From: Blastocatellia bacterium
GTDB taxonomy: Bacteria; Acidobacteriota; Blastocatellia; HR10
Reading direction: 5' to 3'
Assembly: GCA_035573895.1 (NCBI GenBank)
Contig: DATLZR010000083.1
Span: 1 to 54,463, forward strand
Length of the DNA: 54,463 bases
In this document: positions 20,914 to 28,426 of the stretch, in pieces
Layout: each line of letters begins with the position of its first letter
Numbering within the stretch: position 1 is the first letter of the stretch
Notes under the pieces: generated by a model
Told to the model about the DNA's origin: nothing
What the model saw: only the letters and a program-made list of their open reading frames with translations
The model's database searches: none
Program-made: the position numbers and the translations under genes

Positions 20914-23092
20914 CTTCGAGATCGGCCGTGTGGTCGCCGTAGACACTGCCCAAGTGACCATCGAGCTAAATCCCGATTTGAAAGGGATGAGCCGAAATAC
21001 CTACGAAGGTCCCCAAGAAGTCGGGCGAATCAACTCCTATGTGATCATCCCGGTCGGGGCTCGGCGCCTGGTCGCCATGGTAACGCGCGTAGTGCTCGTC
21101 GAAGAAGCAGAGATGAGGGCTGATCGGACAATGGTTGCACTTCCTGCCACCCGCCGCCTGATGAAAGCTACGCTCATTGGTACCATTGAGGGCGGTTCGT
21201 TTCGACAAGGCGTGTCACTTTTCCCTGTGCTTGACGCTCCGGTTTACCTGGCTGGTCGGTCTGACCTGGACGCCCTCTTCGGTCCTATCGAGCAAGACAC
21301 CGGCTTAGCCTCAAACTCGGAGAACCCGGGGTACTGCATCCCAATCGGTGAGTCCGCAGTCATGCAGGGGCGAATTATTCGGATCAATCCAGATGCTTTC
21401 TTTGGTAAGCATGCCGCAGTCCTTGGGAGTACGGGGTCCGGCAAGTCCTGCACAATTGCCAGTCTGATCCAAGCCATTCGTGAGCAACCGGGAGTGAAGC
21501 GGACGATCTTCGTGATTTTGGACACGAACGGCGAGTACCGAACGGCATTCCAAAAGCAGAAGGACGATGGTAGTTGGGAGGATCTCGGACCACGGGGGAC
21601 GCTTTATATCCCGTCTGATCGGGTTGCGAAATCTGACCGGCTCGTGATTCCATACTGGTTCATGAGCTCGGAAGACTTTGTCCGGCTGTTTCAAGCTTCC
21701 AAGGGTGTGCAGCGGCCTGTTCTACTTGAGGCTTTGCGTCTCGCACGAAATGAAGCTGGTACTGCATCACGGCTCACTGTGCTGCGTGAGGAACTTATTC
21801 ACGAAATTAACCGAATTTGGTCGTTGTCCGGAAAGGATGAAAAGACCTCCAAAGATGTAAGAGACTTAGCACAAGGACTCAAGAACCGCATTAGTCAAGA
21901 TGACCTCACGACCGCATGGGGAGAGGCCGAGGTTAAGTATTCTCTGACCAAGGCCCACGTGGATAGGGCTTTAGATACTGTGTTGACTATTGCCTCGAAC
22001 CATATCGACAACGGCGTCTACCCTAAGGTCCTCCCCGCTGACGCTCGGAAAGTAATCCGCGACACCCTCGAGCCTATCTATGAGAAATTGACCGGGGCAC
22101 ACCTCGGTGAAAGCGGCGCAGATACCAGTCGGTCTGCAGATACTCCTTCATATTTCGATAAGTTGAAATTCCGCTCCCGGCACCTCGAGCGAGTTCTCTG
22201 CCGCGAGGAGTCAGGAGGTGCGAGGGCGCGTGATTACGTGGGTACGATGCTTATGCGAATCGACCGCCTGCTCACCGATCCGAGGTTCGATTTCCTGTTC
22301 GGTCCGGTTGGCCAAGCGATGCCGAATCCAGTGCATGCTTTGGCAACGTTTCTTCGTGACACCCTTGGCATCGGTGCGGCCGAGGCTCTGCAGTTGTCGT
22401 CCAAAGATGACGCTCCGGAGGGACAACTGCCCTTCTATGACCGCCAGCGTGCCGGCGAGAAGGCCGTTGATGTTGTTATCCTCGACCTGAGCCTGCTTGT
22501 GGCTGAAGTCTTAGAAAATGTGACCGCGCTGATCGGCCGTCTGATTCTCGAGTTTCTGCAGCGCTTGGGCGAGTACGGAGGCGAGGGCGCTCGGGGTTCG
22601 TTGCCCGTTGTCCTAGTCCTGGAGGAAGCCCACAACTACATCCAACAGCCGCGGTCCGCTGAGGAAGAATCGATTTCGCGGGTCCTCTTTGAACGAATCG
22701 CTCGCGAAGGACGCAAGTATGGCCTCGGTCTGGTGGTGGCCTCGCAACGGCCAAGTGAACTTTCCAGGACCGTGCTATCTCAGTGTAATAGCTTCATTGT
22801 CCATCGGCTGCAGAACCCTGAGGACCTGCGGTATTTTAAGGAAATCGTGCCGGCCATTTATGGTCCGATGCTTGATCAGATCCCAGCGCTCGCACCGCAA
22901 ACCGCGCTGGTCCTCGGCGAGTGCGTACCGGCCCCGGCGCTTGTTCGGATCCGCGAGGCACGCCCCGTGCCTAGGAGCCGCGACCCGAAGTTCTACCGAT
23001 ACTGGGTAACCGATTCTCCTCCGAAAGTCGATGTCGAAGCCATCTGCAAGCAGTGGGAGAACGCGAGTAATCAAGAGGAAGATAGCGGATGA
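20903..23092 (+). CDS. herA: HerA-family hexameric ATPase, partner of SIR2
   Basis: FtsK/HerA-type ATPase of 729 residues. An N-terminal beta-barrel (HAS-barrel, about 1-130) precedes the Walker A motif [10 protein letters not shown] (175-184), the sensor-like LDTNGEYRT, the Walker [13 protein letters not shown] (about 568-579) and a C-terminal arginine-finger region ([19 protein letters not shown]). ATG 20903 lies in the end of the SIR2 gene. In known SIR2-HerA systems the HerA hexamer scaffolds the SIR2 subunits into one large complex. The pair appears intact. The hsdR remnant starts 4 bases inside its end. Confidence 0.9.
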
Positions 23093-24544
23093 CCCCTCAC
23101 GCCCTCACTGAATCCACCGTCGAAGAGGCCGCCCTGACTTGGCTGGAATCCCTCAGCTGGCGGATTGCCTATGGGCCGAACATTGGGCCGGGCACTCTGA
23201 CCGCCGAGCGCGCCGATTACCGCGAGGTTATCCTGGCCCAGCGGCTGCGCGATGCCCTGGCGCGGCTCAACCCCGACCTTCCGGCTGAGGCCCTGGAGGA
23301 TGCCTTCCGCCGCCTCACGCATCCGGAGGGTGCCACGCTGGAAGCCCGCAACCGGGCTTTCCACCGCATGCTGGTAGATGGGGTCGAGGTGGAATACCGG
23401 CGCCTGGACGGGCGCATCGCGGGTGCCCAGGTTCACGTCCTGGATTTTGAAGACCCCGACAACAACGACTGGCTGGCTGTGAACCAGTTCACCGTGGAGG
23501 AGGGCCGCCATACCCGCCGCCCAGATATCGTCCTCTTCGTGAACGGCCTGCCCCTGGCCATCATCGAGCTTAAGAACCCTGCGGATGAGGAGGCCACCAT
23601 CTGGACGGCCTTCAACCAACTGCAGACCTATAAGGCGGAACTTCCCACTCTCTTTTCATTCAATGAATTGCTGGTCATCTCCGATGGCCTGGAAGCCCGT
23701 CTCGGGACCTTCATCGCGGGGCGCGAATGGTTCAAGCCCTGGCGGACGGTCGCCGGCGTTCAGATCGAAGACCAGAGCGTTCCACAGCTTGAGGTGCTTC
23801 TCAGGGGCGTGTTCGACAAGCCGTACTTCCTGGAGCTCCTCCGGGACTTCATCGTCTTCGAGGACGACGGCAGCGGGCGGCTGGACAAGAAAGTCGCGGG
23901 CTACCATCAGTTCCATGCGGTACGGGTGGCCGTGGCGGAGACGCTCCGCGCATCCAAGGAGCCCCTCAGCTCGGCCTGGGTCCGTGAACTCCTTATGAGA
24001 TATCAGACAGGCATCCAGCCCGGCGGGCGTCCGGGAGACCGCCGGGTGGGCGTTGTCTGGCACACGCAGGGCGCCGGCAAGAGCTTGACCATGGTCTTCT
24101 ACGCGGCCCGCATCGCCCGCGAACCGGAGATGGAGAACCCCACCATCGTGGTCCTCACCGACCGTAACGACCTGGATGACCAGCTCTTCGGCGTCTTTTC
24201 CCGCTGTCAGGACCTCCTGCGCCAGCCCCCAGTCCAGGCCGAGTCGCGCGCCCACCTGCGGGAGCTCCTCCGCCGCCCTTCCGGCGGGATCGTGTTCACC
24301 ACCATCCAGAAGTTCTTCCCGGAGGAGAGGGGAGACCGGCACCCTCTCCTCTCCGAGCGCCGCAACATCGTCGTGATCGCCGACGAGGCCCACCGGAACC
24401 AGTACGACTTCATTGACGGCTTCGCCGGCACATGCGCGACGCCCTGCGCCCAATGCCTTTTTCATCGCCTTCACCGGGAAGCTCACCGAACCGATGTTCG
24501 AGGCGATCTTCCGCCGAGCCCGCGAGTTGATGGAAACCCGGTGA
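23089..24544 (+). pseudogene. hsdR: Type I restriction endonuclease subunit, truncated and frameshifted
   Basis: The N-terminal half is intact: the PD-ExK nuclease domain ([20 protein letters not shown], about residues 145-165), the helicase P-loop [30 protein letters not shown] and the DEAH box [18 protein letters not shown]. After that the sequence shifts frame: the expected HMRDAL piece is in another frame, and FIAFTG (motif III) resumes in frame 2 from 24461. It continues directly into [20 protein letters not shown] and a stop at 24542. The rest of the helicase and the C-terminal domain, about 500 residues, are deleted. Translation in the original frame would run on to 24612. No active motor can be made. 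Confidence 0.82.
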
Positions 24545-24583
24545 GTTCCCCCCTCAGTCGGTGCGGAAAAGGAGAACACGCAA

Positions 24584-25138
24584 ATGCACGGAGACGTCAA
24601 CGAAGCCTTTGAGATTCTTTTGAACGAACTGGATGCTGCTCTCAAGGATGTGCGGGAGCGTGCAGCTGCAGCATCCCGGCAGGGCGACTATGAACGGGCG
24701 CAAACGGAGCTTGCACGGGCGCAACAGATAGAGAAGTTCATCGCCGATATCCACGCCAAGCGGCAACAGTGGCAAGCGCTGATCGGTAAGCCGCGCCGAC
24801 AGCGCGAGGGCAGAGGAAAGACCAAACCACTCCCGCGCGGACAGCGCACGCCGGAAGAGGCGTATCGTTTGCCCATCTTGCGCGCTCTGGTAGCGATGGG
24901 TGGTGAGGGCACGGTGTCCGCAGTTCTCGAACGTGTTTATCAAGAGATGGAGCCGCATCTGAAGCCCATTGACCTGAAGCCGCTGCCGTCGGATGCGAAG
25001 ACGCCACGCTGGCGCAACACAGCCCAATGGGCACGGAATTCCATGGTCCGCGAGGGTTTGTTGCGAAACGATTCGCCGCGCGGCGTCTGGGCAATCACTG
25101 AGCGCGGGCGGGCCTATCTGCGGCAGCACGGGCAATAG
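24584..25138 (+). CDS. Coiled-coil protein with a C-terminal Mrr_N-like winged helix
   Basis: Protein of 184 residues. Residues about 8-65 are rich in heptad-like Ala/Leu/Glu/Arg and likely coiled coil. A basic linker ([19 protein letters not shown]) follows. The C-terminal 95 residues resemble the winged-helix N-domain of Mrr-type restriction proteins: [37 protein letters not shown] and [13 protein letters not shown]. Such small proteins often sit beside hsdR and are presumed DNA-binding accessories. It appears intact although hsdR just upstream is broken. No nuclease domain is present. Confidence 0.65.
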
Positions 25139-26339: not shown

Positions 26340-26873
26340 TTAGTCCCGCGGCAGAGAGGCGAGCAAAAGGGCATTGGGCGGATTGTCCGCGGCATGGCGC
26401 GAGTGGTAGGCGAAGCGAATGATCCCCGACCGATCAACGATGAAGACACCGGGTAGTTGTCGAGGGTCTCCGACGGGTTTACCCGCTCCGTATCCTTTTC
26501 GTACAGCCTGGAGTCCACGACGCCAGACCGATGGTCCAAGAAGTTGAACCAGTGATCCCCGACCGAGACCGAAGGCAGCAAAGGCCCTGCGCTCGGGATC
26601 GGCCAGGCAGGGGAACGGCAGATCGCGTTCCCGCCGGAAAGACTCCGTCTGTCGCTCATCGCCCTGAGTGATGACGACGATCTCAGCTCCCCGCCGACGA
26701 AATTCCTCATAATCGCGCCGTAACTCGGCGACGTGCTCGCGGCAAAACGGTCAGCCAAGATGCCGAACGAAGACGAGCACGACCGGCTGGCGCTGCCAGA
26801 AATGCGAGAGTCTGACCGTCTGACCATCGGTTTGCTTCAGCTCGACATCCGGTGCCGCATCTCCGATTCGCAT
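26340..26873 (-). CDS. Peroxiredoxin-like protein (AhpC/TSA superfamily), candidate selenoprotein with in-frame TGA at codon 41
   Basis: Read from ATG 26873 the frame gives MRIGDAAPDVELKQTDG, then VVLVFVRHLG, an in-frame TGA (26753-26751), and PFCREHVAELRRDYEEF, to a TAA at 26342-26340: 177 codons. The TGA stands where the family has the first cysteine of a CxxC redox motif (normally GCPFCREHV), so it would encode selenocysteine (UPFC). Everything after it is intact (IVVITQGDERQTESF, FPCLADPERRAFAAFGLG, GVFIVDRSGIIRFAYHS). A GGAGGG ribosome-binding site lies six bases before the ATG. The product would be a thiol peroxidase or disulfide reductase of the PRXL2/SelU-like kind. It lies downstream of rtcB. 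A simple nonsense mutation (TGC to TGA) is the alternative. Confidence 0.75.
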
Positions 26874-26954
26874 CCGATTCCCTCCGAGAATGTGACGCAC
26901 GCTTTCCAGCCTGCACACAGTCGCAGACCGGAAAGTCCGCGCTGCCTGTGTTCT

Positions 26955-28397
26955 TTATCCCTTCACAACGCCAATCGGTCGCAAACGAGCGACGCGACGG
27001 GCAATCCCGGCGGCTTCGACGACGCGGGCGACCTCGTTGACATCCTTATAGGCTTCGGGCACTTCTTCCAGCACACCATCTTTGCTGGCGGCTTTGACGA
27101 TAACGCCCCGACTGGCCAGTTGCGCTCGAACTTGATTAATGTCGCGTCCCTTTTTGGCGGCCGTGCGAGACATCATTCGACCGGCGCCATGACAACTGGA
27201 AGCAAATGTCTCTTCGGCCGCCGTGCCGATCAACACATAAGATGCTCGCCCCATATCTCCGGGGATGATCACCGGCTGGCCGATGGCGCGATAGGCTTCG
27301 TGCAATTCGGGATGGCCGGCGGGCAAGGCGCGGGTGGCTCCTTTTCGATGAACGAGCACACGCCGGGGCTCGCCATCTACCCGATGCGTCTCGAATTTGG
27401 CGATGTTATGCGCCACATCGTAGAGAATCTCCAGATCCCCCCTGTCTCCGAAATGTCGCTGGAAGACTTCTCGCACCCAGTGCGTGATCATCTGTCGGTT
27501 GGCGAAAGCGAAATTCGCCGCCGCATTCATCGCTCCGAGGTAATCCTGTCCCTCGGGCGAGGTGATATAGGTCGCCGCCATTTCTTTGTCCGGCAGACGA
27601 ATCTTGTACTTTTCCATCGCCGAACGCAGCACCTTCAAGTAGTCGGTGCACACTTGATGACCGAATCCCCGTGAGCCGGTGTGAATGAGAACGGTCACCT
27701 GTCCCGGCGACAGACCGAACGCCCGCGCTGCCGACTCGTCGAAAATCTCATCCACGTACTGGATCTCCAGGAAATGGTTCCCCGAGCCGAGCGTTCCCAG
27801 TTGGTCAGCTCCACGATGCTTGGCGTGATCGCTCGCCGCTTTGGGGTTGGCTCCGGGGATGCAGCCGCGCGACTCGATGTGATCGAGATCATCCTCCCGT
27901 CCGTATCCCTGTTCAACCGCCCACTGCGCGCCCAATCGGAGCACGTTATCCATCTCCGCCCGACTCACGCTGATTTGCCCTTCCCGACCGGTTCCTGACG
28001 GAACGGCATGAAACAGATCGTTGACGATTGCCTCCAGCCGGGACCTCACCTCATCGAGTTCCAGGTGGGATTTCAACAAGCGCACGCCGCAGTTAATATC
28101 AAACCCGATGCCGGCCGGCGAGACGACGCCTTCCTCGGCATCGGTCGCGGCCACGCCTCCGATGGGGAATCCGTAGCCCTGATGCACATCGGGCATGACG
28201 ATGGGCCGACCGACGATTCCCGGGAGAAACGCGAGGTTTGCTGCCTGCTCGAGCGACAGATCCTTCATCACCGATTCGAGCAATGTCTCATCCACGTAAA
28301 TGATCACATCGGTTCGCATCCCCGGCTTATAACTGCGAGGAATCATGTAGCGATAGTCATCGAGTTTGACCAGTTTTTCTCGCCAGTTCGTGGCCAT
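26955..28397 (-). CDS. rtcB: RNA-splicing ligase RtcB
   Basis: GTP- and Mn-dependent RNA ligase of 480 residues that joins 2',3'-cyclic phosphate ends to 5'-OH ends in RNA repair. Signature blocks are present: PDVHQGYGFPIGGVAA, GIGFDINCGVRLLKSH, LGTLGSGNHFLEIQ, VLIHTGSRGFGHQV and the guanylylation histidine in SSCHGAGRMMSRTAAK. ATG 28397 follows a GAGGAGG site 8 bases upstream; the GTG at 28406 overlaps that site and is rejected. A perfect TATAAT box lies 30 bases upstream on the same strand. The peroxiredoxin-like gene follows after 81 bases and may be in the same transcript. Confidence 0.96.
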   Translation of the reverse strand: MATNWREKLVKLDDYRYMIPRSYKPGMRTDVIIYVDETLLESVMKDLSLEQAANLAFLPGIVGRPIVMPDVHQGYGFPIGGVAATDAEEGVVSPAGIGFDINCGVRLLKSHLELDEVRSRLEAIVNDLFHAVPSGTGREGQISVSRAEMDNVLRLGAQWAVEQGYGREDDLDHIESRGCIPGANPKAASDHAKHRGADQLGTLGSGNHFLEIQYVDEIFDESAARAFGLSPGQVTVLIHTGSRGFGHQVCTDYLKVLRSAMEKYKIRLPDKEMAATYITSPEGQDYLGAMNAAANFAFANRQMITHWVREVFQRHFGDRGDLEILYDVAHNIAKFETHRVDGEPRRVLVHRKGATRALPAGHPELHEAYRAIGQPVIIPGDMGRASYVLIGTAAEETFASSCHGAGRMMSRTAAKKGRDINQVRAQLASRGVIVKAASKDGVLEEVPEAYKDVNEVARVVEAAGIARRVARLRPIGVVKG

Positions 28398-28426
28398 GAC
28401 CGTCACCTCCTCTTGTTCAAAACCAT

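Follow-up and report, generated by a model that had tools for sequence, protein, structure and literature searches.

Classical peroxiredoxins are recognized by the active-site signature PxxxT/SxxC, and SelL carries two selenocysteine (Sec, U) residues arranged as a UxxU diselenide. Peroxiredoxin (Prx)-like selenoproteins with a UxxC motif were reported in a survey of the Sargasso Sea (PMC1088965) and again in a 2006 survey of bacteria (PMC1794560), and recent reviews list Prx-like selenoproteins with both UxxC and UxxU (PMC9312934, PMC13188914). The literature searched contained no mention of "SelL-related" selenoproteins. The locus described here lies on a 54,463-nucleotide contig of a Blastocatellia bacterium (Acidobacteriota; GCA_035573895.1, DATLZR010000083.1), the whole of which is referred to as the window. 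Judged from sequence comparisons, the TGA at codon 41 of one of its genes very probably directs Sec insertion, making this a working selenoprotein gene and not a broken one. An earlier note on the same DNA had put the gene forward as a candidate selenoprotein, a proposal now strengthened by the sel genes of the genome, the TGA in relatives, equal selection on both sides of it, a link with selA, and hairpin covariation.

With TGA read as U, the minus strand yields 177 residues followed by a normal stop and contains a single in-frame TGA; the product of the gene (26873..26340) is MRIGDAAPDVELK...VFVRHLGUPFCREHVAEL.... Over the same interval, the plus strand is broken by other stops. The earlier note had described an otherwise uninterrupted 177-codon gene with one TGA at codon 41. 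The translation agrees, and both the coordinates and the description are accurate, save that the strand was left out. The good ribosome-binding site it mentioned corresponds to GGAGGG, positioned 6 nt 5' of the ATG (Table 1). A scan for sigma-70 promoters and terminators, by criteria that say little outside model species, returned none near the gene. The window has 38 stop-to-stop frames of over 300 codons, some of which are not genes; 27 of them terminate in TGA. TGA is thus not reassigned throughout the window, as the earlier note had held in calling it an ordinary stop there, and genome-wide reassignment was rejected on the same count. Standard gene callers would cut the gene at the TGA or omit it, and naming it as a Sec gene mends the annotation.

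Table 1. Features of the selenoprotein locus, in window coordinates
Feature	Position	Strand	Basis
SelL-related redox selenoprotein gene (predicted), 177 aa, GUPFC (U41-x-x-C44)	26340..26873	minus	Translation with TGA as U, NF040769, PF00578, AlphaFold2
Sec codon (predicted), in-frame TGA, codon 41	26751..26753	minus	Translation; same codon is TGA in L035, L036, L037, L064, L065, and L067
Cys44 codon, partner (putative resolving) Cys of UxxC	26742..26744	minus	Column invariant in 32-row alignment, U written as C
Ribosome-binding site GGAGGG	26880..26885	minus	Direct sequence reading
Candidate bacterial SECIS hairpin CG-U-CGCCG[AGUUA]CGGCG-CG, bulged U	26714..26733	minus	Energy, bSECIS model fit, homologue covariation
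rtcB-family RNA ligase gene	26955..28406	minus	RtcB-family matches, scores below curated equivalog cut-offs

The closest curated model is NF040769 (SelL-related redox protein), which the product matches with 183.1 bits against a cut-off of 120, residues 6-172 aligning to model positions 2-171; all 32 aligned homologues match this model as well. PF00578 (AhpC-TSA) scores 98.6 bits against 26, PF13911 (AhpC-TSA_2) scores 64.8 bits against 27 over residues 50-158 only, and the Pfam Redoxin model also matches. Residues F35, R37, U/C41, U/C44, R45, and D92 do not vary among the aligned sequences, and the TGA takes the place of the first, likewise invariant, Cys in RHxG[C/U]xxCR, the first redox-Cys position at which the earlier note had placed it. 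We assign the protein, from these profile matches, as a Sec (UxxC) member of the SelL-related redox proteins. Two other assignments were rejected. The stretch VFVRHLGU has V34 at position -7 and H38 at position -3 in place of Pro and Thr, a departure from the PxxxT/SxxC signature that sets the protein apart from classical peroxiredoxins, and its UxxC (UPFC) motif, not UxxU, sets it apart from SelL proper. The "SelU type" label offered in the earlier note holds for the fold, for the CxxC spacing (C44/C47 in PDB 9usa), and for the AhpC-TSA_2 match, but the curated fit is to NF040769.

The AlphaFold2 model (mean pLDDT, 95.6; pTM, 0.92), in which U41 was modelled as Cys, places this residue just before the helix spanning residues 42-53. 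Its best PDB matches are the peroxiredoxins Bcp4, Bcp1, BcpB, and AhpE, human PGFS (prostamide/prostaglandin F synthase; 9usa), and ResA. Within this predicted thioredoxin/peroxiredoxin-type fold, Sec41 would sit at the start of helix α1 with Cys44 one helical turn further on, an arrangement that points to Sec41 as the attacking residue. Sec41 may attack a peroxide or disulfide substrate and form a selenenyl-sulfide with Cys44 as the resolving residue; thioredoxin or a similar reductant could subsequently re-reduce the Sec41-Cys44 bond. A peroxide is marginally favored as the substrate. A tentative alternative is a ResA- or thioredoxin-like thiol-disulfide oxidoreductase that acts on a disulfide and is not a peroxidase, as suggested by the thioredoxin-like UxxC, the missing PxxxTxxC signature (V34 and H38 for Pro and Thr), and good structural matches to ResA; the closest structures by E-value, however, are the Bcp and AhpE peroxiredoxins, and PGFS is also close.

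Sec insertion requires dedicated genes, and the earlier note had proposed looking for selA, selB, selC, and selD, regarding their absence as evidence against a selenoprotein. All four are present in the genome that holds the window (G000; 3.9 Mb, 97% complete, a draft of 184 contigs). The selC gene (tRNA-Sec) on contig C49 scores 73.8 bits against a gathering score of 47, and ARAGORN calls the same tRNA as tRNA-SeC with anticodon UCA; selB on C86 scores 356.8 bits (cut-off, 242), selA on C5 scores 596.6 bits (cut-off, 268), and selD on C126 scores 369.2 bits. In the Rfam alignment, the tRNA-Sec (L009, 1501-1594) departs from standard pairing at the innermost positions of its acceptor stem, with a score well over the gathering threshold. 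The selD gene (L027, G000:C126:7770-8696) is a selenoprotein gene too, with an in-frame TGA at GAGUACK, which we take to be the site of the catalytic Cys/Sec in SelD. A second Sec peroxiredoxin gene (AhpC-TSA; L003, G000:C73:8639-9013) has its TGA within TGGU, corresponding to the TxxU motif of Sec peroxiredoxins. Given the sel genes and the TGA codons in selD and the C73 peroxiredoxin gene, the UGA codons of at least three genes in this genome most likely specify Sec. The Acidobacteriota lineage of the window can accordingly be listed as a maker of selenoproteins, with SelD, a TxxU peroxiredoxin, and the UxxC protein.

The in-frame TGA is widely conserved. In a phylum sample of 396 genomes, most best homologues contain one in-frame TGA, and the identical codon is TGA in G331 and G323 (64-65% identity), G074 (53%), HRbin08 (69%), and HRbin10 (66%). 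The TGA is shared by a Chloroflexota MAG and by JZ-3, an Acidobacteriota MAG that seems to represent the G323 genome itself; a contig search with the single protein as query yielded six relatives. Among the fetched loci, distinct homologues with the full motif carry U in 40 of 48 cases and C in the other 8. Two kinds of motif variant occur among the homologues. One locus (L089, G051) reads UVFP instead of UxxC, retaining the Sec with the partner Cys gone, and four from the same phylum (L046, L079, L090, and L102) have two in-frame TGA codons, giving the double-Sec UxxU motif of SelL type. When the window gene was compared with its nearest relatives, dN/dS was 0.15-0.22 after the TGA versus 0.18-0.21 before it, with synonymous sites near saturation. 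By this measure, purifying selection is equally strong on either side of the codon.

These data bear on a rival interpretation of the TGA, namely that it marks a pseudogene created by nonsense mutation or a sequencing error for TGC or TGT. Either event could leave one nonsense codon in a frame that is otherwise whole, and the genome is a draft in 184 contigs, but the TGA recurs in independently assembled relatives and in many distant homologues, selection is alike on both sides, and alignment with the Cys homologues, a check suggested in the earlier note, places the TGA exactly on the Sec/Cys column. The retention of TGA in relatives together with equal selection excludes sequencing error, including the TGC/TGT misreading considered in that note, and recent pseudogenization; we regard this interpretation as extremely improbable.

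The Sec interpretation is further linked to the distribution of selA, which scores above its curated cut-off in 250 of the 396 genomes. It is present in 38 of 39 genomes with a TGA-form homologue versus 212 of 357 others (Fisher's exact P = 2e-7, uncorrected for relatedness), and the only TGA-form genome without a detected selA is the fragmented G104. Among the Cys-form-only genomes examined, selA is missing in 3 of 13. Such tracking argues against termination at the TGA with the downstream part made separately, and against read-through as Trp, Cys, or Gly. Near-cognate tRNAs can in principle read through TGA, but here TGA always replaces the catalytic Cys and the TGA form carries SECIS covariation (below); for a separate product, inspection by eye revealed no internal ribosome-binding site after the TGA. 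We consider both variants very unlikely.

Decoding of UGA as Sec calls for a SECIS element, which the bacterial bSECIS model describes as a hairpin of at most -7.5 kcal/mol whose loop of 3-9 nt has a G in its first two positions and lies 16-37 nt after the UGA (PMC13188914). The candidate hairpin agrees with this model in loop, spacing, and energy: its apical loop AGUUA (26721-26725) starts 25 nt past the UGA and has the dinucleotide GU at positions 2 and 3, the 5' arm contains a bulged U, and the predicted energy is -8.9 to -10 kcal/mol. The GCCG and CGGC segments that the earlier note had seen as a possible hairpin after the TGA are the two halves of this stem. The most numerous group of homologues has a hairpin at this place too, its stem of as many as seven pairs closing an AGUU loop, again 25 nt after the UGA.

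Covariation was evaluated in a 26-row alignment. Stem positions pair in 80% of cells versus 67% in shuffles (0 of 500 shuffles reaching this value), cells changed on both sides number 22 versus 8.8 (0 of 500), and the covariation score is 0.390 versus a shuffle mean of 0.192 (0 of 500), with the best slid control at 0.167. As the rows are related, the shuffle counts are not probabilities, whereas the slid control preserves relatedness. The clade of the window pairs in a slightly shifted register and adds nothing to the covariation count. Codon choice shows a similar imprint: 25 of 34 Sec homologues use TTR for the Leu codon that gives the loop its UU, versus TTR at 78 of the 505 Leu codons elsewhere in these genes (Fisher's exact P = 1e-12, with related rows). 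The AGUU hairpin is missing at this place in the Cys homologues, and a simple model finds no hairpin in several Sec homologues (L045, L052, and L098).

Taken alone, the window sequence folds unremarkably, and the case for a SECIS element therefore depends on the homologues. A fraction of 0.15-0.17 of synonymous recodings of the same peptide equal the window hairpin, which is not significant; folding of the 41-71 nt region against shuffles gave no unusual stability; and an Rfam search of the gene region identified none of its families, the one match being a 12-bit snoRNA hit ascribed to chance. The bacterial SECIS search proposed in the earlier note thus leads to a SECIS-type hairpin 25 nt downstream that is backed by homologue covariation and not by the significance of the window sequence itself. 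SECIS-like hairpins occur in all three Sec genes of the genome at spacings of 23-26 nt; those identified by eye are GGACCU[GGUCG]AGGUUC, 26 nt after the UGA of selD, and GGCC-UAUCA[GGC]UGAUA-U-GGCC, with a bulged U, 23 nt after the UGA of the C73 peroxiredoxin gene. In the mechanism we propose, SelB and tRNA-Sec (UCA) would read the UGA at codon 41 as Sec, directed by the SECIS hairpin. The aligned hairpins can serve as a SECIS model for the family of this protein.

The genomic neighborhood gives a first hint, and no more, of what the protein may do in the cell. The selenoprotein gene is preceded on the same strand, at a distance of 81 nt, by an rtcB-family gene, and the two are possibly co-transcribed. 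The same two genes stand 82-87 nt apart in G331, G323, HRbin08, and HRbin10 (among loci L064, L065, L070, and L071), a mildly new conserved association. Around the pair in those four relatives, nothing matches the frames from the outer flanks of the window; the difference in flanks indicates that the two genes stayed together while their surroundings changed at least once. At the other fetched homologue loci, most of which reach ~1.5 kb per side, rtcB was not found nearby. PYROXD1 protects, and thioredoxin influences, the oxidation-sensitive active-site Cys of the human ligase RTCB (PMC12263435, PMC10653391). By analogy, the selenoprotein might keep the oxidation-sensitive active-site Cys of RtcB reduced, as a bacterial selenium counterpart of the PYROXD1/thioredoxin protection of RTCB; we consider this unlikely, and the adjacency to rtcB, seen in just one family, speaks for it only weakly. 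Elsewhere in the window, a type I restriction HsdR frame (23089-25138, plus strand) matches, in its best stretch, just the N-terminal part of TIGR00348 (model positions 2-263 of 674) and is followed by a short overlapping frame; it looks truncated or frameshifted.

Comparison with described systems places the predicted selenoprotein among known relatives. It matches the NF040769 family over its full length and shows no defining difference from it, representing a Sec (UxxC) member. The Prx-like thiol:disulfide oxidoreductase selenoproteins (PF00578, UxxC/UxxU; PMC9312934, PMC13188914) agree with it in Pfam family, motif, and Sec position; the reference protein of that family is WP_010940744.1. 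SelL is likewise Prx-like and has its redox motif at the same place, but the window gene encodes UxxC instead of UxxU. SelU/PRXL2, represented by human PGFS (9usa), has a similar fold (TM-scores of 0.75/0.81) and a similar redox-pair spacing, the mutated residues C44 and C47 of 9usa being a CxxC pair; identity to 9usa is, however, only 16%, and PF00578 and NF040769 both outscore PF13911. The TxxU peroxiredoxin encoded on C73 belongs to the same superfamily and shares the genome and the Sec machinery, but no Cys lies three residues beyond the U of its TGGU. Prx-like selenoproteins with UxxC have been known since 2005-2006, and the window gene is a further copy, in an Acidobacteriota lineage.
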